Under the pieces are notes generated by a model. That model was not told where the DNA came from, did not search any database, and worked only from the letters and a program-made list of their open reading frames with translations. Below are positions 16,955 to 38,828 of a stretch of DNA of 40,309 bases, in pieces. Position 1 is the stretch's first letter; each line of letters begins with the position of its first letter. Source of the stretch: Pseudomonadota bacterium (GTDB taxonomy: Bacteria; SAR324; XYD2-FULL-50-16; JAHJRI01); the NCBI GenBank assembly GCA_022360105.1, contig JAKSDL010000266.1, forward strand, positions 1-40,309, in the 5' to 3' direction. The translations under genes and the position numbers were made by a program.

Positions 16955-19900
16955 TTATCGAACTACAGCGGATTGAGTGGATCTCAGTTTTCTAATTCTG
17001 ATTTTGGCAAATTCATATTCCCACCAACCATCAAGATAGGTACTGAGTGCTTCTTTATAATGATTTATGGCGTCTTCGATCCGGCCACTTCCTTCTGCCC
17101 AAAAACCAAGGGCAAAATGAGATATCAGCAGATATTCAGGGCTTTCTGCGACACTTCCTGTCAGGCGGATAGTTGGTTGTTTCTGGGACAGTCCATTCAG
17201 CAGGGATCGATACCAAGGGTTTTTAATCTGTTTCAGGGTTTCAATGCGTTTTCTTTCGATAACGGCATTTTCCGAATTAATTATTTTAAGCACACCAAGC
17301 TCGAGGACACGTATACTCAGATATGCTTTGTTTTCCCTTGTACCTTTGCTCATATATTCATCAATGTATTGAAGAGTAGATTGCCAATCTCCTTCCATTG
17401 CATTGAAAAACGCCAGTGAGATTAGTGTGTCTTTATTCCCCGGATCCAGTTCGATCAATCGTTTAAGAACCATGATTTTGTCATCCACTCTTATGGACGG
17501 AACCAACAACCTAGAATACAAAGGTGTGACTTGTTCCCGACGAACGACGTTTTTCGCATGTGAACTGATCATAGACTCATAAAACGCTTTGATTTCTCTT
17601 TGCAATTTTCGTTTTTGGAAATTACCTCTCGATAACAGCAACTGCTGATCCTGCATTTGCTTCAATTCTGCGAGAATCAGATACAAAACCCAATCATCTT
17701 TTTTGGCAACTTTTGCTGCTTGCCGCAGTAACCTGTGAGCTGTTTCAGTCTGTTTATATTTATAATGAACCAGGGCAGCGATATAATAGATCCAGCTTTT
17801 TTCGCTTTGCGTATGCCACCCTTGCAAGGCCGATTGCAAATCGATATTTTCCTCAAGTATTCGAGTCAAATACCCATAAAACTCTGCGGAGGATCGCCAA
17901 TCAATATCCAACAATCGCTTTCTGTAGGGGCTGTCTGCCAGATCAGCATTGAGCCAGTCGATCAAATAAACCATCAGACTGGCCTCGTAGTATTGGGGAT
18001 CCATTGATACCACCCGTTCAAACAATTGTTTGGAAAGTGGATAGTCTCCCTGGCAGAAATGCATGAAACCGGCAGCGGTGATCAATTTGGGATCCAGACT
18101 GAATTTTAGCTCATTGTCCACTATGCCGCTAGCTGTTTTCCATTTCCCTTTCATGGCCAGTTCTTTAATTTTCTCCACTTTTTGATCGATGGATATATCA
18201 AGAACACCATTCCATTTGTGTTGACCTGATTTTAATTCTTCAAGGAAAGTTACGGTCTTTCTGATGGGCAACACCATTCCAATATCGGATAATGGCGTAA
18301 TAACAGGAATCATCCCCATGGTTGTGTCAAACATGATTCCTGTCGCAATTCCGATCGCCTTTCCTTCTGCATCGATAATTGGACCACCGCTATTTCCTTT
18401 GTATATGGAAGTATCTACCTGAATCATGTCTTCAAATATCCGTCTAACATTTCCCTTTGTCACACTGACATTGACACTGTTGGCCTGTGCCCTGCTGCCA
18501 AGGGGAAATCCAATAGTGATAACCGGTGAAAGCTTTTTGATATGTCTATGATCCGGAGAGTCGTCCAAGGGGATTGGTTTTAAACCAGGAGGAACTGCAT
18601 CAATTTTCAGAACCGCAAAGTCATCCCTTAACGGCGAACGGCTAAGAAATCCGGGATATATAACAGATCGTTCGATACCTGCAATTTCAACACGCGGTTT
18701 GCCATAAGATCGATAAGCAGACTTAAGGTAATAGATATCGGCCAGTTCCTGGCTGTTTTCGAGGGTCGGTATTCGTTGGTAGGCTTTTTGCCCCTCAAAC
18801 CAGAGGTACATGCGGTAGTCAAAGGAGATAGGGACTTGTTGCCTATTCATTTGGCCAATCAATAAATGAAGATCCCGGTCCAACAGCCAGGGAGCAGCGA
18901 CATGTCTGTTGGTTACCAAGTACCCCTCGTTATCAACCAGAAATGCAGTGCCTTCCGTTCGTTTTCGATAAATGATGTTTTGTTCTTGTTTGACAACATA
19001 TTCAACTAAAACGAAAGCAACGGAATTTGAATATCTGTTTGCATGTTCCTGGAATACGACTTCCATGTCCGGTTTAAAAAAGCCGAAATAAGTAAAGCCG
19101 CCCACAGCCATTATCATCAAAATAATAAAAAGAGCTGCCACGTTCCAAATCCGTTTCCGTAGTTTCTGCACTTCCGGAAATTGCTTGGTTTGCTTATCTA
19201 ATTTGGGTCTGGGGGGTTTTTCCGGTTTTTGGATTAGAATCCTGGCAAGTGAATCGGCCACTTCTTTCATTGATTGCGGCCTTAAGGAAGGATCCTGGGC
19301 CAGCATCGTCTTAAGCAGGGTTTTTGCATTGCGAGGAATTTTTAAGGCTTCCACTTGTCCAACCACCGGGCACCCACCAAGATCTGTGGTCAACAATTCA
19401 ATAAAAATCTTTCCTAGCGACCAGATATCACTTCTAAAATCCAGCGGCTTTTTATTGACAATATCCGGGTGGCAATTTAGCAAATCGTTGAGCATCGTCC
19501 CCGGCAAATGAGGGTTGTGATTTAAAAACCGGGATAGTTTAAAATCGATCTTTCCTTTCAGTTTTTTGGTCCCATCCCTGATCGCGATAATATCACTTAA
19601 AACGAGATGGGGCATAAAATGCCCCGAAGAATGCAACACGCTCATGCTGGATGCAAGCTGGTGAAAAAAATCAAAAGCTATGCGGTAGTTTTTAAAAATG
19701 CCAGATGAAAAAACCGAACTCCATTCTTCCCCATCAACCCATTCGCTAACCCTGTACCATAAACCTTCGGAAGATTTCTTTAATTCATAGTGTTTGACAA
19801 ATCCCTCATCGGACAATTGATTTAATTGTTGCAGCCGCGCTCTCAAACGATCGGCTACTTGCTCATTCACACCGGATTGGTCCTTGAACAGGCGAATCAA

Positions 19901-20083
19901 CACCGGTGTCTTGTACCCTTCTTTTTCTGCCTTGCAAAGAATGCTGGCAAACCCGTCCTGTAACACACTGACAATTGCGTAATCGTCTATAGCATTTCTA
20001 CCTTGAACAACTTCATCTCCACAAGAAGGACAAATTGCCATCGCTTCGGCAAGCAATTGGTCACATGTCTGACAGATTTTCAC
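16955..20083 (-). CDS. Zinc ribbon - pseudokinase - TM - trypsin-like protease - TPR fusion protein
   Basis: A 1042-residue protein. The start is GTG at 20083 with GAGGAA six bases upstream. An N-terminal zinc ribbon (C4, C7, C18, C21) precedes a Ser/Thr-kinase-like domain (~32-290). Its key residues are lost: the ATP lysine is Arg64 (VLIRLF), the HRD-x-K-x2-N loop reads Met-Pro-His159-Leu-Val-Leu-Ser-Asp, and DFG reads Asp180-Phe-Lys. The later FRSDIWSLGKIFIELLT and RPQSMKEV segments are well kept, so it is a folded pseudokinase. A TM helix (~315-337) follows, then a trypsin/HtrA-like protease with the intact triad His394 (VTNRHVAAP), Asp488 (DDFAVLKID) and Ser565 (GNSGGPIID), without a PDZ domain. 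About residues 620-1040 are TPR-like helical repeats. The protease and TPR parts should lie in the periplasm. No operon partner is visible. The role is unknown; a regulated protease or scaffold is an inference. Confidence 0.85.
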   Translation of the reverse strand: MKICQTCDQLLAEAMAICPSCGDEVVQGRNAIDDYAIVSVLQDGFASILCKAEKEGYKTPVLIRLFKDQSGVNEQVADRLRARLQQLNQLSDEGFVKHYELKKSSEGLWYRVSEWVDGEEWSSVFSSGIFKNYRIAFDFFHQLASSMSVLHSSGHFMPHLVLSDIIAIRDGTKKLKGKIDFKLSRFLNHNPHLPGTMLNDLLNCHPDIVNKKPLDFRSDIWSLGKIFIELLTTDLGGCPVVGQVEALKIPRNAKTLLKTMLAQDPSLRPQSMKEVADSLARILIQKPEKPPRPKLDKQTKQFPEVQKLRKRIWNVAALFIILMIMAVGGFTYFGFFKPDMEVVFQEHANRYSNSVAFVLVEYVVKQEQNIIYRKRTEGTAFLVDNEGYLVTNRHVAAPWLLDRDLHLLIGQMNRQQVPISFDYRMYLWFEGQKAYQRIPTLENSQELADIYYLKSAYRSYGKPRVEIAGIERSVIYPGFLSRSPLRDDFAVLKIDAVPPGLKPIPLDDSPDHRHIKKLSPVITIGFPLGSRAQANSVNVSVTKGNVRRIFEDMIQVDTSIYKGNSGGPIIDAEGKAIGIATGIMFDTTMGMIPVITPLSDIGMVLPIRKTVTFLEELKSGQHKWNGVLDISIDQKVEKIKELAMKGKWKTASGIVDNELKFSLDPKLITAAGFMHFCQGDYPLSKQLFERVVSMDPQYYEASLMVYLIDWLNADLADSPYRKRLLDIDWRSSAEFYGYLTRILEENIDLQSALQGWHTQSEKSWIYYIAALVHYKYKQTETAHRLLRQAAKVAKKDDWVLYLILAELKQMQDQQLLLSRGNFQKRKLQREIKAFYESMISSHAKNVVRREQVTPLYSRLLVPSIRVDDKIMVLKRLIELDPGNKDTLISLAFFNAMEGDWQSTLQYIDEYMSKGTRENKAYLSIRVLELGVLKIINSENAVIERKRIETLKQIKNPWYRSLLNGLSQKQPTIRLTGSVAESPEYLLISHFALGFWAEGSGRIEDAINHYKEALSTYLDGWWEYEFAKIRIRKLRSTQSAVVR

Positions 20084-21438: not shown

Positions 21439-22548
21439 ATGAACAAATTCATGAATGACCGGAAAGAAAACTCTGATAAGCAGATACAGGAATTAACTGA
21501 AAGCTCACTGATGGGTATCAGTATCATCCGGGGAGAGAACTTCATTTACATGAATTCAGAGCAGAAGCGGATATTCAGTCCCAATGAAAACCTGCTCCGA
21601 TTTCGAGATTTAATGATCCACGAAAATGATCACCAAAGATTTGAACAAATCTGCAATGCTATTAAACAAAAAAAGCCATTAAACACCGATGTAGAAATTC
21701 GCTTCTACCCGGGGAATGATGCGATGCAAAGGCATGAATTTAGGCATGTGGTCGTGCGCACCGGGATGATTCGTTATCATTCCGAAATCATGACCCTGGT
21801 GAATATGGTTGATATCACCCATAGCAAACGCATGGAGCATCTGGCATTGCTAAGGAGCAAAATGGTATCCTTGGGCCATATCTCTGTTGGCATTGCCCAT
21901 GAAATCCGCAGTCCTCTGACAGGTATCAATTTCCTAATTCAGGGAATTCGGGAGAGCCTCGAATCTTCTGAGCCAAAAGAGGAAGTCCTGGACCTTTTAG
22001 ACCAGGTTGAAAAAGCCACAGATAAAATAGAGACTGTAGTGAAACGAGTGTTGGACTATGCAAAACCCTCAGAACCCCAAGTCAAGCTCGGTAACATTAA
22101 TCAACCAATTCTTTCCGCAGTCCGGCTTTGCCAAGCTGCAGTTCGCAACGCAGGAATTACCCTTGAAACACGTTTGAACGAAGAATTATCTGATCTTTTC
22201 ATCGATTTTCACTTAATGGAGCAGGTGTTCATCAACCTGATCAACAATGCGGTCGCAGCATTGAATGACATTGAAAAATTGAAAGTGATCGATATAGCTT
22301 CCCGACAACTTGAAAATGATATTTTGATCACTGTCTCCGATTCTGGCAAAGGTATTCCCAAACAGATGAGAGACAAGATTTTTGACCCGTTTTTTTCCAC
22401 TCGAAAAACGGGCACAGGAATCGGATTAAGTATCTGCCAAAGGATCATTACCGATCATGGCGGAGTGATGACCATTAGCGAATCAACTTATAATGGAGCT
22501 CAATTCAATATTAGGCTTCCCATAGAAAAAAGGCAGTTTACACGATGA
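21439..22548 (+). CDS. PAS-domain sensor histidine kinase (NtrB-like)
   Basis: A 369-residue cytoplasmic kinase with no TM segment. A PAS-like sensor fills residues ~14-130 (ESSLMGISIIRGENFIYMN start, MTLVNMVDITHSK end). HisKA has His154 in GIAHEIRSPLTG. The ATPase domain shows the N box FINLINNAVAAL, G1 DSGKGIP, F box FDPFFSTRKTG and G2 GTGIGLSI. The stop overlaps the start of the sigma-54 regulator by 4 bp (ATGA at 22545-22548), so the two are translationally coupled and almost certainly a cognate pair. The ATG at 21439 lacks a Shine-Dalgarno; an in-frame ATG four codons later (21451) is an alternative. The signal is unknown. Confidence 0.9.
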   Translation: MNKFMNDRKENSDKQIQELTESSLMGISIIRGENFIYMNSEQKRIFSPNENLLRFRDLMIHENDHQRFEQICNAIKQKKPLNTDVEIRFYPGNDAMQRHEFRHVVVRTGMIRYHSEIMTLVNMVDITHSKRMEHLALLRSKMVSLGHISVGIAHEIRSPLTGINFLIQGIRESLESSEPKEEVLDLLDQVEKATDKIETVVKRVLDYAKPSEPQVKLGNINQPILSAVRLCQAAVRNAGITLETRLNEELSDLFIDFHLMEQVFINLINNAVAALNDIEKLKVIDIASRQLENDILITVSDSGKGIPKQMRDKIFDPFFSTRKTGTGIGLSICQRIITDHGGVMTISESTYNGAQFNIRLPIEKRQFTR

Positions 22549-23936
22549 GTCGTTATTCTATTTTTTTAATTGATGATGAAGAAAGCATTCGAAAGGGCAT
22601 TGGTGTCAGCTTAAAAAAAGAATATGAAATTGAAACGTTTGCTGATGCAGAAAGCGCCCTGCAAAAATTTACCAAAAAAATCCCCGATCTGATTCTCCTG
22701 GATATTGGCTTACCGGGGATGAACGGTATTGAAGCCTTAAAAGAAATAAAAAAGATTGACCCACGGATTATTGTCATCATGATCACCGGCTTTGAAGAGA
22801 TCGATACCGTGATTTCCTCCATGAAAGCAGGTGCTTATGATTACATCGTAAAGCCTGTCCGTCTCAAGGTGCTTAAGCATTGTCTAAACAAGGCTTTGGA
22901 AACCATCAGACTGCAAAAGGAAGTAAGGGAGTTGCAGGAAAAAGCAGTCAGTGAAAACATGCCGTGCATTATCGGAGAAAGCAACGTTATACAACACATC
23001 ATTCAATTTATCCGCAAGGCCGCATCCAGTCCTGATACGCCGATACTTATCACCGGAGAATCCGGGACCGGTAAGGATCTGATTGCCAAGGCCATTCATT
23101 ATCAAAGTCCCAATTTTGCAGGACCGTATGTTACACTGAATTGTGCAGCGATTCCAAATGAACTGATCGAAAGCGAACTGTTTGGCTATGAGAAAGGAGC
23201 CTTTAGCGGCGCACAACCTTCAGGAAAAAAAGGACTACTGGAAGAAGCCGACGGCGGAACCTTGTTCTTGGATGAAATAGGGGATCTCAGTCTGAACGCC
23301 CAGGCAAAATTGCTTAGATGGCTGGAAGATGGTACCTACTATAGGGTTGGTGGGACTGCGGAATGGCGTTCAACTGTTCGGGTAGTATCAGCAACAAACA
23401 AAAATATTGAACAGTTAATTGAGGAAAGACGTTTTCGTCTGGATCTATACTACCGCATTGGCGTGATCAGCATCGAAATTCCCTCTCTGAACGATAGAAA
23501 CGAAGATGTGATTCCTATTGCAGAGTATTATTTGAATGAATTCAGCAAAAAGCTTAACAAGTCATTTGCCGGATTCACACCGGAGACTGAAATTTTTTTA
23601 AAAAACCACCACTGGAATGGGAATATCCGCGAGCTTAAAAACATGATTGAACGAGGGGCAATAATTGGTTCCGGCGATTTCCTGGCTCCCGAAGATCTTG
23701 GTTTTTCAGGTGCTCCCCTTCAAGACAGCAAATCAAGTGGAAACATTGAGCTCAGCAATGAATTCCCGGGTCTGCCGCCGGGAGGCATTAATCTGGAAAA
23801 ACTGGAAAGACATCTGATACTGGAAGCACTAAAGCAGGCAGAAGGTAATGATACCAAAGCGGCTAAACTCCTTGGGTTAAATTATTATGCATTTCGTTAT
23901 CGACGTAAAAAAGCTGACCAGGCAGATGAGTCATAA
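22545..23936 (+). CDS. Sigma-54-dependent response regulator (NtrC family) with GAFSGA loop
   Basis: A 463-residue enhancer-binding protein. The receiver (~3-120) has Asp53 in LLDIGLPGMNG and Lys in VKPVR. The AAA+ domain (~145-370) has Walker A GESGTGKD, Walker B GTLFLDEIG and a complete arginine-finger region (RFRLDLYYRI). The sigma-54-contacting loop reads GAFSGA at residues 218-223, with Ser221 in place of the usual Thr. The C-terminus is a Fis-type helix-turn-helix (NDTKAAKLLGLNYYAFRYRR). It is coupled to the PAS kinase upstream. It would activate sigma-54 promoters; candidate sites are the tandem palindromes just downstream at 23961-23999, but this is not established. Confidence 0.9.
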   Translation: MSRYSIFLIDDEESIRKGIGVSLKKEYEIETFADAESALQKFTKKIPDLILLDIGLPGMNGIEALKEIKKIDPRIIVIMITGFEEIDTVISSMKAGAYDYIVKPVRLKVLKHCLNKALETIRLQKEVRELQEKAVSENMPCIIGESNVIQHIIQFIRKAASSPDTPILITGESGTGKDLIAKAIHYQSPNFAGPYVTLNCAAIPNELIESELFGYEKGAFSGAQPSGKKGLLEEADGGTLFLDEIGDLSLNAQAKLLRWLEDGTYYRVGGTAEWRSTVRVVSATNKNIEQLIEERRFRLDLYYRIGVISIEIPSLNDRNEDVIPIAEYYLNEFSKKLNKSFAGFTPETEIFLKNHHWNGNIRELKNMIERGAIIGSGDFLAPEDLGFSGAPLQDSKSSGNIELSNEFPGLPPGGINLEKLERHLILEALKQAEGNDTKAAKLLGLNYYAFRYRRKKADQADES

Positions 23937-31375: not shown

Positions 31376-31420
31376 ACACCAACAGTGAGTTTACAGTGTT
31401 TTTCGAGTAATTCATAGTAT

Positions 31421-31463
31421 TAAAAAGATCTCCCGGGCTGGAGATTTCAGATGCCCGGGATCT
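31421..31463 (-). terminator. Rho-independent terminator of the exporter operon
   Basis: On the minus strand the arms GCCCGGGATCT (31453-31463) and AGAT-CT-CCCGGGC (31426-31438, with a two-base bulge) form a GC-rich stem with a 14-base loop, followed by TTTTTA. It lies downstream of the small membrane protein gene and the coding remnant. Confidence 0.65.
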
Positions 31464-31506
31464 GGGGAGGGATTTGTTATGATACTAACCTGTTTTGCCT
31501 GATATT

Positions 31507-31716
31507 CTAGGGAAATACCAACCGCACCTCCTCTCTTTGCAAGGGGATCAGTGCTTTTTCGATCTTTGTGAAAAAATTTATTTCATACTCAGCAGAACCT
31601 GGGATCTGTTTGCGTAACACCTTATAAAATTGACCTTCAGACTCACCAATCTGATTCTGAATCAGGAGAAAGCGCCCTTCGTTTAGGTTTGTTAAGGATC
31701 CCGTTAACCAGCTTAT
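31507..31716 (-). pseudogene. Coding-like remnant without start codon
   Basis: On the minus strand 69 codons between stops read SWLTGSLTNLNEGRFLLIQN, then QIGESEGQFYKVLRKQIPGS, ending in QREEVRLVFP and TAG. The composition is that of a real protein and it has no usable ATG, GTG or TTG at its beginning. It lies just downstream of the 108-residue membrane protein in the exporter operon, and before the terminator. It may be the 3' end of a decayed or frameshifted gene of that operon. I recognise no family. Confidence 0.4.
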
Positions 31717-31747
31717 TTACTTCCAACTCGGCCTTGATTCAACCAAG

Positions 31748-32074
31748 TCAGTGCTTTGTGTGTATTTCGGATGAAACAGTTTTCGCGTTGCCAACGGGAT
31801 ATGTCATTAACTGCCTCAACATATGGTCCGCTTCTGCAAATTCTTCAATATCGGTGTAATAGATTGCCGTGGCCTTTATGTCATTTTCCTTTATAAAACT
31901 GATCAGCGGTTTCATAAAGGCAAGGTTGCCCAACCAGGGAGTAACATATACGGCAAAAATCCAGATAAAAGCAATACCCATGACTAAGCCGGCGTATCTT
32001 TTGAGCCTCCCTTGTTGGGAAAGATTATTATCTATTTCACCTTTACAAGATGTTTCCAAGGGTCCGATTTTCAT
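31748..32074 (-). CDS. Small membrane protein in the exporter operon
   Basis: A 108-residue hypothetical protein with one hydrophobic segment (~28-53, YAGLVMGIAFIWIFAVYV) and a soluble C-terminal part (~55-108) rich in acidic residues (YYTDIEEFAEADHMLRQ). The gene starts 2 bp after the stop of the YeiH-like exporter gene, so it is co-transcribed and probably coupled. An accessory or regulatory subunit of the exporter is a reasonable inference. I recognise no family. Confidence 0.6.
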   Translation of the reverse strand: MKIGPLETSCKGEIDNNLSQQGRLKRYAGLVMGIAFIWIFAVYVTPWLGNLAFMKPLISFIKENDIKATAIYYTDIEEFAEADHMLRQLMTYPVGNAKTVSSEIHTKH

Positions 32075-32076
32075 TT

Positions 32077-33816
32077 TTAGATTTGTGCCGTGATTTCAGG
32101 GAATACCAGGAAGAACATGATATATGCCATTAGCAGCGTCAGCATCAGATTAAACGATTGACCGCAGACATAAAGAATCAGCGGTTTTCCCCCTTTAAAG
32201 TAAGATTTTAGCTCACGAAAATTGGTAGCCAGACCAATACTGGAGAAAGCCAAACAGAAGAACCATCCCCTAAAAATTCGAGAACCCCCGCGGATTGCAC
32301 CATGCTCAAGTAACGTGTAGCCTGCATCCTTTCCAAATGAGCCGTATAATAATGAGAAGAAAATGGACGCTGCAATAAAGCCCAGTACAAATTTGGGAAA
32401 TCTGAACCAAATTTCTATCATTCCCACATCCTGACCGGCCTGTTTGTCGATTTTCGTCGTCCAGATCAAAGCAACAACGAAAGCCACCAAACCAATTAGC
32501 ACATTTTGGATCATTTTAATCGTCGCCGCAACATACATCGCTGTGTCGCTTAGAAAAGCCCCCGCCGCAGCTACTGCTCCTGTAGCATCAATCGTCCCAC
32601 CCATCCAGGCTCCACCCAGCACATGGTGCATACCTGTTGCTGTGATAAAAGCCGGCATGGCAATCATCATTATCGAGGTGAATACCATGGAAAGTCCCAC
32701 AGCAAGGGTCAATTCCTCTTTTTTCGCCCTACAGGCAGCCGCTGTGGCAATAGCTGCGGATACACCACAAACGGACATATCTGAGGAAATAGTCACATTT
32801 AAGGTTTTGGAAGGCATTTTGACGATTTTTTGCCCAAAAAAATAGGTGGTTGTCAATACAATCGGTGTCACAATCCAGGCTACAAATATACCTGGAACTC
32901 CGATTGATAAAATTTTTCCGAAAAGGATCTCGGCTCCCAGCAGGACCAGACCTGTTTTTATGTAATATTCAGTCTGCACTGCCGGTTCAATCCATTTGGG
33001 AGTGCCTATGGTGTTGCTGATGAGCATACCTATTGCAATTGCCCAAAGTGGATAACCAAATCCAATACTCTTGATACCGCTTTGAGCAGTCAAAGTATAA
33101 GCCAACACTGCAACCAGAAATACACCAACAAAACCGATCAGGAATTTGCTGATGTTTTCCCCCATCACCAGCCTGCCTATACTAAAGAAGACTCCCGTAA
33201 TCACCATCAATGCTATCAGATAAAAAATCTGATTATAGCCTTTTACATTGGCTTTCTTCTTTGCGCTGGAAGTTTTGTTTATGGCAAATCGCCAATCACC
33301 AATGGCTTTGATAGCCTTTTGGTTTAATGCATTGTTTTTAAAGGATTCACCTGACGCGGCGTTTTCTGCAGCCATGGCTGCGGCAAGCAGTGAAGCTTCC
33401 CTTTCTTTTGCAGCTTCAAATTTGTCCACTGCTTTTTGAGCCTTAGCACTGGCTTTGGAATCACTCATGAAAAATGCATCCAAGGGATTACTGCTCCAAC
33501 CATGAGGCTTGCCAGTGAATTTCTTTATGGTTTTACCTGCTCCTGAACTTGTTGCTTTCAGTTTGCCCTTTGCATCACTGGCTTTAAACCAGGCGATGGT
33601 TCGAAAAGGTGCTTTTTCCGACTCAGCTTTGAGAATTTTATTGGCTGATGCAATCTTGCTTTCCATGCTTACAGGTCCCCTGGGGACATATATAAGCAGA
33701 CCAATTATCAAAATAGCAAAACCTAGCCAGATGGCCCACCAGTCCTCCTTTTTCCACAATTCGGACCATTCCCATTTGCCGACATCACGTACAATATCAT
33801 CATTGCCCTGTGCCAT
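32077..33816 (-). CDS. YeiH-like putative sulfate/sulfite exporter with long N-terminal extension
   Basis: A 579-residue membrane protein. Residues ~195-579 match the Cons_hypoth698/YeiH family (putative sulfate export), with about ten helices and family-like segments such as GYPLWAIAIGMLISNTIGTP, KTGLVLLGAEILFGKIL, SSDMSVCGVSAAIATAAAC and the later FCLAFSSIGLATNF. The family core is usually ~330-350 residues, so the first ~195 residues are extra: one helix (~28-46) and a soluble Ala/Lys-rich domain. Upstream are a very good ribosome-binding site (AAAGGAGG), a candidate sigma-54 promoter (33949-33962) and a perfect enhancer-like palindrome (34015-34038). The heme-motif kinase and NtrC-type regulator encoded just beyond are the probable controllers. 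Actual substrate unproven. Confidence 0.8.
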   Translation of the reverse strand: MAQGNDDIVRDVGKWEWSELWKKEDWWAIWLGFAILIIGLLIYVPRGPVSMESKIASANKILKAESEKAPFRTIAWFKASDAKGKLKATSSGAGKTIKKFTGKPHGWSSNPLDAFFMSDSKASAKAQKAVDKFEAAKEREASLLAAAMAAENAASGESFKNNALNQKAIKAIGDWRFAINKTSSAKKKANVKGYNQIFYLIALMVITGVFFSIGRLVMGENISKFLIGFVGVFLVAVLAYTLTAQSGIKSIGFGYPLWAIAIGMLISNTIGTPKWIEPAVQTEYYIKTGLVLLGAEILFGKILSIGVPGIFVAWIVTPIVLTTTYFFGQKIVKMPSKTLNVTISSDMSVCGVSAAIATAAACRAKKEELTLAVGLSMVFTSIMMIAMPAFITATGMHHVLGGAWMGGTIDATGAVAAAGAFLSDTAMYVAATIKMIQNVLIGLVAFVVALIWTTKIDKQAGQDVGMIEIWFRFPKFVLGFIAASIFFSLLYGSFGKDAGYTLLEHGAIRGGSRIFRGWFFCLAFSSIGLATNFRELKSYFKGGKPLILYVCGQSFNLMLTLLMAYIMFFLVFPEITAQI

Positions 33817-33948
33817 ACATTGCCTCCTTTTTTGTCACTTCATTTTGCATCCATTCAAACCCTTCAGGCGTCTTCCCTAATCCCAACTCGACACCGGATG
33901 AGTGTGAATGTACGAAAAATACAAAGATCGAACTTCAGGTCTGCTTCA

Positions 33949-33962
33949 GCAAGGAGCATACC
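33949..33962 (-). promoter_or_regulatory. Candidate sigma-54 (-24/-12) promoter
   Basis: On the minus strand the sequence GGGTATGCTCCTTGCT has GG and GC exactly ten bases apart and keeps TTGCT at -12, with the -24 box diverged from TGGCACG to GGGTATG. It would start transcription about 120 bases before the exporter ATG. The perfect palindrome about 90 bp upstream of that start supports it. Confidence 0.5.
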
Positions 33963-34014
33963 CTCTCACTAAAAACCACTTAATCTATTGTTTTAATGGA
34001 CTTTTACATTCAGA

Positions 34015-34038
34015 TCTCTTGATGTTGTGCTCAAGAGA
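34015..34038. promoter_or_regulatory. Enhancer-like palindrome TCTCTTGA-N8-TCAAGAGA
   Basis: Two perfect 8-base arms (34015-34022 and 34031-34038) with an 8-base spacer are centred about 90 bp upstream of the predicted sigma-54 start. Such sites are bound by NtrC-family dimers, and the neighbouring gene encodes one. Confidence 0.6.
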
Positions 34039-34215
34039 CTGCCATCAGCAAGAGGCACCTTTGCTTTTATTTTAATTCAATTAGTCGCTAATATATTAAC
34101 ATCTTTGAACTTAACATGAGGTGCAACAGTTTGCTGCAAGTGGAAACTCCGGGAGGCACCAAAGGGGAAAAAGGGTTGTGTTAAATAAAAGGGAAATGAA
34201 GGAACCAACAAAAGG

Positions 34216-35601
34216 CTAACGATAGTCACGGACATTAATCTCGTATCGATTAATTATCTTTTGCAGGGATTGTCTTTTGATACCGCTTATTTTGGCTGAG
34301 ATGGACACATTGCCTTCGGTTTGTTTTAACAAACGGCAAACATACTCTTTGGTAAAACGTTCAATTATTTTTTCTTTTAGTTGTTTGTAAGGTCCGTTCA
34401 GATCCAGATCGATATCTGCTCCGAATCCTTCGGCCTCTTCAACGTCAATGTGTTCAAGCCGGACTGTGTCCGTGGGAATAGTCGCTGTCCAGGCTCGAAT
34501 CGCATTTTCAAGCTCCCTGGCATTCCCCGGCCAGTCTGTTGTTTGCAAGCGTTCCAAAACTTCTGCTGAAATCATTTTAGCTTCAGTTTTTAATTCAAAA
34601 GCCGCTTTGGCCAAAAAGTGATTTGCCAACAAGGGAATATCTTCTTTAATTTTGTTCAAATCGGGCATAACAAGATTCGCAACATTGAGCCGGTAAAAAA
34701 GATCTGCCCGAAATTCTCCCGATTCAATTTTTGCCGGCAGATTTTGGTTGGTTGCAGCAATGATCCGTACATCAATTTTGTGACTTTGTCCGGCACCAAC
34801 AGGTTTTAGCTCCTGGTTTTGCAACACCCTTAATAGTTTCGTTTGCAGGGACAAAGGCAGATCCCCGATTTCATCCAGAAAGATTGTGCTGCCTTCAGCG
34901 CTGTCGAACAAACCCTTTTTTTCTGAATCTGCGCCTGTAAAAGCCCCCTTCACATGCCCAAACAGTTCACTTTCGAGCAAACCCTCGGGTAAAGCGGGGC
35001 AATTGACCGTCACCATTTGCTTCTTACCACGTGCACTCATCGCATGGATCAACCTGGCAGCAACATCTTTACCGGTTCCTGTTTCACCTGTAATCAAAAC
35101 CGTTACATCAGTCTTGGACAGTGTTTTAATTTGGTTTCTTGTCTGTTGTATTCGGCTGCTTTTCCCTATCAAAGAATCCAAAGAAATCTGTTGGTTTTTT
35201 CCGAGTTGCATTCGATCGTTTTCGTGTTGCAACCTGCTTTTTGCCAAGCCTTTATTCAAGAGGCTTACCAGTTTTTCAAATTCAAACGGTTTTTGGATAA
35301 AATCATAGGCACCATGTTTGAGGGCTTTTACAGCAATCTCAATGGTGCCGTATCCGGACATCATGATGACGGTCAGTGAGGGGTTCAGTGACATGATTTT
35401 GTTTAGTAAGGTCATTCCATCCATTTCAGGCATGCTGACATCTGTTAAAACCAAGCTAACCGGTTTATCAGACAGAAGATTCAGTGCTTCTTCACCACTG
35501 GTTGCTGTAAAAACGGCACACTCCATCTCCCGGCTGATGGATCTTTTTAAGCCTGCAACAAGATCAATTTCATCGTCGACTATCAATATTGTATCTTTCA
35601 T
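34216..35601 (-). CDS. Sigma-54-dependent response regulator (NtrC family)
   Basis: A 461-residue enhancer-binding protein. The receiver (~3-120) has Asp54 in VLTDVSMPEMDG and Lys in IQKPFEF. The AAA+ domain (~140-370) has Walker A GETGTGKD, Walker B STIFLDEIG and the standard GAFTGA loop at 219-224. The C-terminal Fis-type HTH reads NVSISAKISGIKRQSLQK. Its start overlaps the stop of the heme-motif kinase by 4 bp, so they are coupled. The exporter operon downstream carries a matching promoter and palindrome, so it is the likely target. The gene is followed by the 399-base regulatory region without a clear terminator. Confidence 0.9.
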   Translation of the reverse strand: MKDTILIVDDEIDLVAGLKRSISREMECAVFTATSGEEALNLLSDKPVSLVLTDVSMPEMDGMTLLNKIMSLNPSLTVIMMSGYGTIEIAVKALKHGAYDFIQKPFEFEKLVSLLNKGLAKSRLQHENDRMQLGKNQQISLDSLIGKSSRIQQTRNQIKTLSKTDVTVLITGETGTGKDVAARLIHAMSARGKKQMVTVNCPALPEGLLESELFGHVKGAFTGADSEKKGLFDSAEGSTIFLDEIGDLPLSLQTKLLRVLQNQELKPVGAGQSHKIDVRIIAATNQNLPAKIESGEFRADLFYRLNVANLVMPDLNKIKEDIPLLANHFLAKAAFELKTEAKMISAEVLERLQTTDWPGNARELENAIRAWTATIPTDTVRLEHIDVEEAEGFGADIDLDLNGPYKQLKEKIIERFTKEYVCRLLKQTEGNVSISAKISGIKRQSLQKIINRYEINVRDYR

Positions 35602-37568
35602 ACCCGCATGTTGGATGGCTCTGATATTCCGTTTCCATTCAAAGGTAGTGCTATTGAAAATGTGGTTCCGCTTCCGGGTTGGCTTATGACAGAGATCTCA
35701 CCACTATGTTGCTGAATGATGCCATAGCTGACCGAAAGACCCAAACCTGTTCCTTTTCCCCGTTCTTTGGTCGTAAAAAACGGCTCAAAAATTTTATCCA
35801 ATTTGTCATCGGGAATTCCACATCCCGAATCAGATATATCAATTAACACCTGTTCCCGTTCTTCGCATAAACGAGTCATCAACTCCAGATTTCCTCCTTC
35901 AGGCATGGCCTGCATACTGTTTATCAGCAAATTCATAAACACCTGCTTCATCTTATCTTCATCGATGACAACATTTTTGATTTTTTGATCCAATTCCCGA
36001 GAAACCTGGATGTTCTGATTTCTCATCTGGTTTTGCAGAACAGATAGGATCTCATTAAGACATTCATGAATATCCGCCTTCTTCATCATGGTATCGGAGG
36101 CTCGCGCAAAATTAAGAAGAGATTCAACAATTGTTTTACAGCTGTGGGCATGTTTGGTGATGATATCGGTGTCTTCCTTTATCTGTTCTGTCGAATCACC
36201 GCTTTTAAGAATCAAGTCGCCGTAACACAGGATCACGCCAAGAGGATTGTTTATTTCATGAGCGACGCCGGCAGCCAGTTGCCCGATGGAAGCCAATCGT
36301 TCGGTTTCGGCCAAATGTTTGTTCAATTTTTTTTCCTCAGTAATATCTCGAATGACGCCCTCCACTCCGATCAGCTTATTTTCATCACTCATTAAACAAT
36401 TGGCTGAAATCAGACAAATGATTCTTCTATCTGTTTTCGTTTTCAAAATACACTCGGCATTTACAACAGAGGACTTATTCTCGATGACACCAAGTAAGCT
36501 CTTACCTTCCTCCGGATTCTCAAATAACCCGGTGAAATGAGAAGTGATTAAAAACTCGAAAAGATCCTCGACCTCAAATAATTTCTTTCCGGCATGGTTC
36601 AAATCAGTCAGTTTACCGTTTACATCTGTGACAAAAATAGCATCCGGAGAAGCTTCAAATAATGTTCGATATTTTGCTTCAGATTCTTTAACTTCGTCAT
36701 GGGCCGTCTTTAGGTTCGCTGCAACATTCTCAAACGCACTTCTTATCTGGTTTATTTCGTCTTTTGAGCTTGTGCCTATCAGATGCTGTACTTGCGGGTC
36801 ATCGGAATAGATGATTTTGAAGGTATTCAGCAGTCTTTTCAATTGGTGCACCACCGTCCTGTTAAACAACAGGGCGAAAAGAGCAAACAGGGAAAATAAG
36901 GAGACAAATCCAAACAAGAACACCCAGGCGGTTTTTTCCTTTATGAGCAAATTTGTGGCATCCATGGGAATATAAATGGTATCGGCACCAACAATATCGC
37001 CCACTTTATAACCATAACTCCGGGTGGTACCATACATTTCCTTTAATTCCCTGGGAGCATCCAGTGGATTTCCATGACAGGTTAAACATGTCTGTTCGGC
37101 TCGTATCGGCATCATCCTGGCGTAAAAGGTTTTGCCTTGTTTTTTAATCATTCCTGCCCATTGTTTTTCATCAGGATTTTCGGTGAACCACTGTAACATG
37201 CCGCTTTCGAATTCATCTGCCAGATTTCCGAGATTTCTCGGGTTTAATGCGGTGCGTCTATAATTAAATTCAGGATAACTCTGCTTCAGATTATTCATTA
37301 TCTGCCGGGAGATGTAGGAAGTAGACATTGCTTCCAGAATAAACTGATCGGAAGGCAACGTTTTGGTAATCTTTGGCCGCAAAGTGTCTTTAACATAAGA
37401 CCTAATTGACGATGCAGCTGTAAGATAAATCTGCGTTTTGTTATAAACCGAAGTCAATGCCTGGTGCTGGAGATTTCGATATTGGTGTATCGAAGCACCT
37501 ACGCAGCAAAAAATGAGGATCATCGCTGCTCCCAGGTAAAACTGGTTTTTTATGCTCAGATTTTTCAT
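35598..37568 (-). CDS. Sensor histidine kinase with Tll0287-like c-type heme domain
   Basis: A 656-residue membrane kinase. TM1 is ~8-26. The periplasmic domain (~28-205) resembles the DUF3365/Tll0287 family and carries a heme c attachment site Cys161-Leu-Thr-Cys164-His165 ([15 protein letters not shown]), so it probably senses redox state, gas or a small molecule through heme. TM2 (~212-233), a HAMP-like linker (~235-290) and PAS (~292-410) follow. HisKA has His437 in [12 protein letters not shown]. The ATPase domain has [19 protein letters not shown] and GTGLGLSV. Heme attachment in the periplasm would require a cytochrome c maturation system encoded elsewhere. It is co-transcribed with the NtrC-type regulator, the likely partner. 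Confidence 0.9.
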
Positions 37569-37805: not shown

Positions 37806-38828
37806 ATGCTAAAAATGAAACAGCCTCGTTATACACTTTTGCAAGAGTTTATAACCCAATTTGAAGTCTGGCAGGAAGCGCTTCCGGTTTTGGATAAAAT
37901 TATCAGCCGTCAGGAAATGGAACTGGTGGTCGTTATGAAAGGAAAAAGCCTGACTTTAAAATCTCTTGCCCAGCTGACCGGCATGACAGAAAATGATTTG
38001 CAGCCCGTTCTGGAAAACGCCTTCCGCAGAAACATTCTCGACAAATCACTGATTAACGACATTTGGTACTATACTCAAACATCTTTTCTAGACAGGTTGG
38101 ATCACTTCGTAAAATTTGAAAACTGGAATGGAATTCCAGCCAACACAAGACGATCTTTGGATCAAAAATGCCTTGAAGACTATGCAGCAAAACAAAAGAC
38201 AGCATTGGAACAACAAGCCCTCGACTCAGGTCAGCATAGAAACGAGTTAAATGACACTTTGTTGCTCTTACCTGAAGTTGAAGACATGCTGAAACACGCT
38301 GAGACTATTGTAATTCAGCCGTGTAATTGCAGGTTGTTTGGTCAGCGTTGTAAAAAAGAGATTGATATTTGTATTTTTCTGGATCTGGAAGCGAAAAAAC
38401 TATTGCAACGGGGTGTGGGAAACCAGGTTACCACTGACAAGGCAATCCAGCTGCTCCATGAGGCTGACCAGAAAGGATTGATGCATACCGGTGACAGCAA
38501 TTGGAAAAAAAACGGATTAAAGTCGATCTGTAATTGCTGTTCTTGTGATTGTTATCTTTTTCTGACTTCATCCCTCTTGAACAGCAAAGGTATATGGCCG
38601 AAAAGCCGGCACCTTGCTGTTGTGGATTCAGAAATATGTGATGCTTGTGCAATTTGTGTCAAACGTTGTCCCTTTGACGCATTTACGAAAGAAGATGAGA
38701 CTATTGTCATTAAAGGGAAACAAAAACATAAAATTACTTACGATAAACAGAAATGCTGGGGATGCGGGCTGTGTGCCAACACATGCAGGCCTGGAGCAAT
38801 CAAAATGGAACGGCTAAATACCGATTGA
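37806..38828 (+). CDS. Multi-cluster ferredoxin-like protein with winged-helix-like N-terminus
   Basis: A 340-residue soluble protein. Residues ~40-100 look like a small winged helix (LKSLAQLTGMTENDLQPVLE then RRNILDKS). The middle has cysteine groups CNCRLFGQRCKKEIDIC and ICNCCSCDCY that suggest a further iron-sulfur site. The C-terminus has two classic [4Fe-4S] motifs: CDACAICVKRCPF and CWGCGLCANTCRPG. It probably carries electrons and may sense or regulate. It is divergent from the heme-motif kinase (237 bp apart) and convergent with the M20 gene. The ATG at 37806 lacks a Shine-Dalgarno; an ATG three codons later is an alternative. Confidence 0.7.
   Translation: MLKMKQPRYTLLQEFITQFEVWQEALPVLDKIISRQEMELVVVMKGKSLTLKSLAQLTGMTENDLQPVLENAFRRNILDKSLINDIWYYTQTSFLDRLDHFVKFENWNGIPANTRRSLDQKCLEDYAAKQKTALEQQALDSGQHRNELNDTLLLLPEVEDMLKHAETIVIQPCNCRLFGQRCKKEIDICIFLDLEAKKLLQRGVGNQVTTDKAIQLLHEADQKGLMHTGDSNWKKNGLKSICNCCSCDCYLFLTSSLLNSKGIWPKSRHLAVVDSEICDACAICVKRCPFDAFTKEDETIVIKGKQKHKITYDKQKCWGCGLCANTCRPGAIKMERLNTD

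Follow-up and report, generated by a model that had tools for sequence, protein, structure and literature searches.

What switches on a putative sulfate exporter (PSE) family transporter in a bacterium close to SAR324, and through which sites on the DNA? The question is raised by contig JAKSDL010000266.1 of assembly GCA_022360105.1, a stretch of 40,309 nucleotides that we call the window. On its minus strand, open reading frames (ORFs) for a sensor histidine kinase, a sigma-54-type response regulator, the exporter and a small protein follow each other in that reading order. An earlier sequence-only reading had seen in them a single local circuit, in which a heme-motif kinase and its coupled regulator would act on the exporter promoter from a perfect palindrome. 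Comparison with related loci agrees with the circuit and with the promoter, but not with the palindrome: a different one, TGCC(AACT-N2-AGTT)GGCA, is conserved as a candidate operator.

The sensor and the regulator bear out what had been proposed for them. The kinase (656 amino acids (aa), 35598..37568, minus strand) carries the CLTCH motif, PAS, HisKA and HATPase_c domains and a Tll0287-like/DUF3365 domain (Pfam PF11845, 2.2e-38). This last domain gives a weak sequence match to the solved Tll0287 structure 5b82; it is probably periplasmic, judging by eye from the two hydrophobic stretches that flank it, and would attach heme covalently. The kinase gene overlaps by 4 bases that of the regulator (34216..35601, minus strand), a 461-aa NtrC-family protein with a receiver (Response_reg, 6.3e-29), a sigma-54 AAA+ domain (Sigma54_activat, 5.9e-69) and the GAFTGA motif. 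Pfam gave no HTH_8 match in the regulator at 1e-3; by eye, its C-terminus looks like a Fis-type helix-turn-helix.

To place these genes among their relatives, exporter loci were gathered from contigs, the best 80 of 102 relatives giving 79 distinct loci, and 20 wider regions were added to the collection. A search of 395 Desulfobacterota genomes returned 58 with an exporter match at 1e-60, with 21 matches near full length, and 3 of the 52 genomes searched in the phylum of relative G002 had one. Out of 100 loci considered, 64 passed a filter on length and identity and two duplicates were dropped, which left 62 full-length exporters including the window; loci L080-L117, short re-fetches and more distant proteins, fall outside this set. 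A Tll0287-type sensor kinase is present in the locus in 30 of the 62 (linked loci, as opposed to 32 unlinked ones), and this is a lower bound because several contigs are short. The kinase-regulator pair lies upstream of the exporter and on the same strand in the window, and is divergent from it or downstream in other loci. All 30 linked sensors contain CxxCH, in a search whose own query contained the motif and so favoured such matches, and of 23 linked regulators listed, 22 have GAFTGA. Three relatives stand closest to our argument: the genomes of L033 (G002), L015 (G004) and L012 (G012) fall in one order, the L033 exporter is 84% identical to that of the window, and we infer that the window locus belongs near SAR324, with these three as SAR324-type relatives. 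The gene for sigma-54 is present in all three of the relatives' genomes.

We searched for the operator with no prior motif, by counting gapped word pairs in the 30 linked upstreams with 10 shuffled sets as a control; this count, together with a leave-one-out palindromic position weight matrix (PWM), replaced a first regular-expression guess (17 of 53 upstreams, with a mean of 4.3 and a maximum of 10 in shuffles). The most frequent pair was GGCA-N6-TTGC, the sigma-54 promoter, in 16 of 30 upstreams, when the top counts of the shuffled sets were 5-7. AACT-N2-AGTT was found 9 times and TGCC-N10-GGCA 7 times; since 7 is also the highest of the shuffled tops, the latter is by count alone not beyond chance. 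Both palindromic dyads share one centre, that of TGCC-AACT-N2-AGTT-GGCA. The PWM scored above the 95th percentile of its own shuffles in 24 of 30 linked upstreams (2 of 30 when reversed) and in 10 of 32 unlinked ones (4 of 32 when reversed). At 14 bits or more, the operator is found in 24/30 linked upstreams, 5/32 unlinked ones and, as a control, 2/337 regions upstream of other genes from these loci, for which the SAR324-type loci were left out when the PWM was trained; one of the two control matches is, by arithmetic, the split-Soret site to which we return below. Operator and promoter also go together: a promoter score of at least 5 is reached in 30 of the 33 upstreams with an operator of at least 10 bits and in 4 of the 29 without, and a score of at least 6 in 20/30 linked, 4/32 unlinked and 39/1240 shuffled upstreams.

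Six of the linked loci (L006, L032, L034, L036, L046 and L133) have no operator directly before the exporter, and in four of them (L032, L034, L036 and L046) the exporter is preceded on its own strand by a universal-stress-protein (UspA) ORF. In all six, an operator is found between the sensor part of the kinase and the exporter, at 11.6-25.6 bits, above the 95th percentile of shuffles in 6/6 cases and above the best of 40 shuffles in 5/6; these sites lie beyond the 500 bp on which the PWM was trained. Each is followed, 146-181 bp past the operator, by a GG-N10-GC element with 6-8 of 8 consensus positions, promoter scores that carry no shuffle control. At the genome scale, a strict operator-spacer-promoter pattern gave two exact matches in the 395 Desulfobacterota genomes and none in a backward control. 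In G202 the match immediately precedes the exporter; in G057 it is about 6 kb away from the exporter and precedes the gene of a split-Soret cytochrome c of 271 aa (NF047622, 416 bits against a cut-off of 400). This cytochrome gene (L139:1644-2459) thus has an operator and a sigma-54 promoter of its own near a kinase-regulator-exporter locus. The operator alone, sought in 19 genomes, has 7 exact occurrences, of which 6 immediately precede exporters and the seventh is that of the split-Soret cytochrome, and 17 more with one mismatch, 5 before exporters and 12 elsewhere; the backward control gave 5 places. In a set of 8 genomes the exact pattern has 4 occurrences, exporters accounting for 2, as against 3 places in 2 genomes for the backward control.

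In the window, the 399-bp region between the regulator and exporter genes contains two copies of the conserved operator that were not on the list of the sequence-only reading. The distal copy, GGTGCCTCCCGGAGTTTCCACT (34139..34160, minus strand), scores 14.5 bits, a value reached by 2/1000 shuffles with the PWM trained without SAR324-type loci; the proximal copy, GGTGCCTCTTGCTGATGGCAGT (34038..34059, minus strand), scores 7.8 bits. Both align with sites in L033, L015 and L012, which have two sites at matching places, each reached by at most 2/1000 shuffles except the distal one of L015. The proposed -24/-12 promoter is found at 33948..33963 (minus strand) as GGGTATGCTCCTTGCT, of the form GG-N10-GC, and is aligned in the three relatives, GG and TTGC being invariant in the four loci. 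Across these four upstreams, both sites and the promoter stand out as conserved islands, with start-to-start distances from operators to promoter of 197 and 96 bp in the window, 195 and 93 in L033, 188 and 91 in L015, and 188 and 90 in L012. NtrC-type sigma-54 enhancer-promoters combine a receiver-AAA+ activator with palindromic sites some 100-200 bp upstream of the -24/-12 element. The window resembles them in the type of activator and in the spacing of the sites, with TGCC(AACT-N2-AGTT)GGCA as the operator sequence that this regulator would bind. A ribosome-binding site, GGAGG (33823..33827, minus strand), lies 7-11 bases before the ATG of the exporter, as had been read.

The palindrome that was first taken for the enhancer, TCTCTTGA-N8-TCAAGAGA (34015..34038, minus strand), is indeed exact, but it is not conserved and probably not an enhancer. 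Perfect inverted repeats with 8-base arms and spacers of 3-14 turn up in 52 of 500 shuffled versions of the window intergenic region; among 60 real exporter upstreams, counting that of the window, 13 contain one. An exact palindrome is thus by itself no evidence of function. In the other 61 exporter upstreams, those of L033 and L015 among them, its best match has 4 mismatches, equal to what shuffles give. Against the PWM of the conserved operator it scores -20 bits, and in the alignment with L033, L015 and L012 it sits beside a 3-base gap and is unconserved. We therefore rejected it as the best explanation; when orthologous loci are compared, it is the -24/-12 element that is conserved, and not the palindrome. 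It could still work as an operator, be it as an additional site of the same regulator that is specific to this lineage or as the site of another regulator: the repeat is perfect, its centre lies 22 bp, or two helical turns, from the proximal conserved site, and operator-like tandem pairs 22-24 bp apart exist in L050, L124, L126 and L135. Given its absence from the other upstreams and the frequency of equal repeats in shuffles, we regard this as very improbable.

The gene that would be regulated (32077..33816, minus strand) encodes a long transporter of 579 aa that belongs to PF03601, the putative sulfate exporter family (9.8e-44), and whose first two predicted membrane helices are separated by about 150 aa. 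The sequence-only reading had called it YeiH-like. Family membership stands, but the NCBIfam YeiH model TIGR00698 gives it 68.6 bits, far under the cut-off of 232.6, and it is therefore a divergent PF03601 protein, with 25% identity to E. coli YeiH over 307 columns. Its 39 aligned relatives are 65-84% identical to it, and two further exporters, P0002 and P0003, are 99% identical. Compared in sequence with solved structures, it found chance-level matches to citrate synthase only. A predicted model (mean pLDDT, the predicted local distance difference test, 71.9; pTM, the predicted template modelling score, 0.60) had no Foldseek match at E <= 0.001, CitS and Na+/H+ antiporters being at the top of the listing.

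A circuit of this kind has been described in Desulfovibrio vulgaris Hildenborough, as the regulon of DVU0540-DVU0539/DVU0542-DVU0545 and DVU0943-DVU0946 (PMC3333781, PMC4641369, PMC10102598). There, the sigma-54 regulators DVU0539 and DVU0946 are reported to share one motif, tested by electrophoretic mobility shift assay, which in two relatives precedes DVU0943 orthologs and a split-Soret cytochrome gene (Rajeev 2011, PMC3333781). The pair DVU0540:DVU0539 is described as divergent from a UspA - PSE transporter - one-transmembrane (TM) protein - UspA cluster, and DVU0539 as activating the DVU0542 promoter in E. coli (PMC10102598). The window likewise has an NtrC-type regulator with an adjoining histidine kinase beside a PF03601 transporter, and a one-TM small protein after it (ORF 31748-32074); the split-Soret cytochrome appears as an extra target among its relatives, the UspA-first layout is seen in L034 and L036, for example, and a universal stress ORF precedes the exporter in L032, L034, L036 and L046, as in the layout of DVU0542. 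The window locus differs in having no UspA gene among its ORFs and a kinase-regulator pair placed upstream on the same strand, and its hosts include SAR324-type bacteria. Compared by description only, its layout, its UspA-first relatives and the cytochrome target make the window circuit most likely a member of the DVU0539/DVU0946 kind, the D. vulgaris system being known here from its published description; the split-Soret target and the order of genes with UspA in front would also be in keeping with an operator motif common to both. Among the best 120 of 282 kinase homologs listed, the named D. vulgaris kinases do not appear.

Other known systems share single parts with the window. The Enterobacteriaceae have, in YeiE-YeiH, a PF03601 transporter beside its own regulator that is associated with sulfite resistance; as described in PMC12880088, that regulator is of LysR type and binds sulfite itself, and YeiH is a protein of 349 aa, 25% identical to the window exporter over the shared region. 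The Tll0287/DUF3365 heme Cache sensors (PMC12889525; 5b82) include CxxCH Cache domains fused to histidine kinases, and the main text of this preprint, PMC12889525, does not contain the words sulfate, exporter or NtrC. In the literature searched, most subscription journals being outside the search, we found no link between a Tll0287 kinase and a PSE exporter. As for the PSE transporters under sigma-54 control, PMC4641369 lists them with no substrate data, and PMC6456213 calls the conditions that activate DVU0539 unknown.

On these grounds we think it likely that the locus works as a chain from Tll0287 kinase to sigma-54 regulator, two operators and an exporter, probably of sulfite. The periplasmic c-type-heme Cache domain of the kinase would sense nitric oxide (NO) or redox state, and the kinase would set the phosphorylation of the response regulator. 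Bound as dimers to the two operator copies, some 100 and 200 bp ahead of the -24 element, the regulator would make sigma-54 RNA polymerase form an open complex at the -24/-12 promoter. Expression of the exporter and of the small membrane protein that goes with it would thereby be switched on, most likely to rid the cell of sulfite (or a different sulfur oxyanion) at times of blocked or overloaded dissimilatory sulfur metabolism, in what would be the counterpart of the DVU0539/DVU0946 regulon. Several observations weigh against this explanation. Taken alone, the proximal site of the window is within chance (83/1000 shuffles reach 7.8 bits), as is suggested too for the distal site of L015 (8.6 bits, 45/1000 shuffles); the window promoter is weak, with 5/8 consensus positions beyond GG/GC; and the strict pattern recovered a single one of the 21 near-full-length exporters in the 395-genome sample, the others escaping because the pattern is so strict. 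The paralogous D. vulgaris circuit is reported to be tied to lactate genes and molybdate, not to sulfite, with fitness effects under molybdate and a benefit from disrupting the transporter in its presence (PMC3333781, PMC10102598). On the side of the signal, NO binding has been reported for one signalling Tll0287 domain, in another species (PMC12889525), and NO is reported to lower the split-Soret transcript in D. desulfuricans (PMC5701242).

What the exporter carries is the point at which the likely chain of control may be right and its purpose wrong: the transporter could move another anion, such as an organic acid, or could import. The D. vulgaris links of DVU0539/DVU0946 to lactate genes and the molybdate benefit just mentioned speak for this, together with the low identity to YeiH, the score below the YeiH family cut-off and the lack of a confident solved-structure match for the model. 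Against it stands the company that the exporter keeps. dsrA was examined in 28 genomes, 22 of them kinase-linked, and is over the cut-off in 19 of the latter; the other three are G452 and G458, whose matches are partial, and G456, an assembly of 1.5 Mb with no match at all. It is over the cut-off as well in both genomes with a strong operator and no kinase seen (G012 and G457), and in none of the four genomes of Bacteroidetes/Saprospiraceae/Cytophagales/Planctomycetota in which no kinase was seen, one of which (L031) has a weak, 10.5-bit operator-like site. In the SAR324-type phylum, all 3 exporter genomes are among the 14 DsrA-positive ones of 52, which has a chance probability of 0.016 without correction for kinship. 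The PF03601 member YeiH, moreover, is reported to be needed for sulfite resistance in Salmonella (PMC12880088). The three SAR324-type exporter genomes gave no match for DsrD, when three other exporter genomes were positive, and sulfite may therefore be produced oxidatively there; SAR324 lacking dsrD have been described as oxidative (PMC11406059). Export of a sulfur oxyanion is thus plausible and sulfite our best guess, and we find the non-sulfur or import alternative doubtful, if weighty enough to be kept in mind.

The identity of the signal is more evenly balanced. Tll0287 has been defined as a c-heme Cache domain, and its family suggests NO or redox as the input: the member that represents signal-transduction fusions is described as releasing NO slowly, like known NO sensors (PMC12889525). 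The heme could instead be a sensor of redox state or electron transfer, or read another ligand, since in the same source a stand-alone member appears redox-like, and reactions with oxygen are described for the proteins that were tested. The lowering of the split-Soret transcript by NO points in the same direction, and because of it simple NO activation fits badly, if split-Soret belongs to the regulon. We consider a sensor of this other type only somewhat less probable than not. A more specific conjecture joins both questions: the trigger of DVU0539/DVU0946-type circuits would be NO (or an oxidative shift), read by a periplasmic c-heme Cache kinase, and the output would be to export sulfite as an emergency measure under inhibition of dissimilatory sulfite reductase, a reflex common to sulfate reducers and Dsr-bearing SAR324. 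We hold this to be speculative and, in its full form, unlikely.

Downstream of the exporter, the predicted small membrane protein is found as an ORF of 108 aa (31748..32074, minus strand), the second gene of the putative operon, with one hydrophobic stretch and no Pfam or NCBIfam match; homologs lie just after the exporter in 23 of the 62 loci, window included. Beyond what had been listed before, the window also holds the C-terminal remnant of a third gene (31510..31683, minus strand), recognised by tblastn with 42-46% identity over 56-57 aa to L012, L015 and L033. The cluster to which it belongs is present in 25 loci, in 20 of them just behind the exporter and on its strand, and takes its name, NF038143 or 'HYxxLL' family, from the match of one of its members. 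We found no complete ORF for the remnant at 31510-31683, the N-terminal part being missing, and with only some 56 C-terminal residues recognisable, the lineage of the window therefore seems to have lost most of this gene. No paper on NF038143 was found in the literature searched, with the same restriction on journals as above. The terminator proposed at the end of the operon is present as a hairpin with a U tract (31418..31470, minus strand), which folds at -16.8 kcal/mol (z -1.9; 7/200 shuffles fold equally well), but in a simple scan terminator-like sites are no commoner than in shuffles. Elsewhere in the window there are a second pair of kinase and sigma-54 response regulator (21439-23936, plus strand); a 340-aa protein with 4Fe-4S motifs (37806-38828, plus strand), divergent from the kinase gene, for which tblastn found no relative among the 79 exporter loci; and a 1042-aa fusion with protein-kinase-like, trypsin-like and TPR regions (16955-20083, minus strand).

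The circuit is most likely of a kind already known from D. vulgaris, found here in SAR324-type bacteria too: the arrangement extends beyond the sulfate reducers of the 2011 survey to bacteria with dsrA and no detected dsrD. With CxxCH-bearing Tll0287 sensors throughout the linked loci and a precise operator in hand, the questions of what triggers DVU0539 and of what sigma-54-controlled PSE transporters carry become directly testable.

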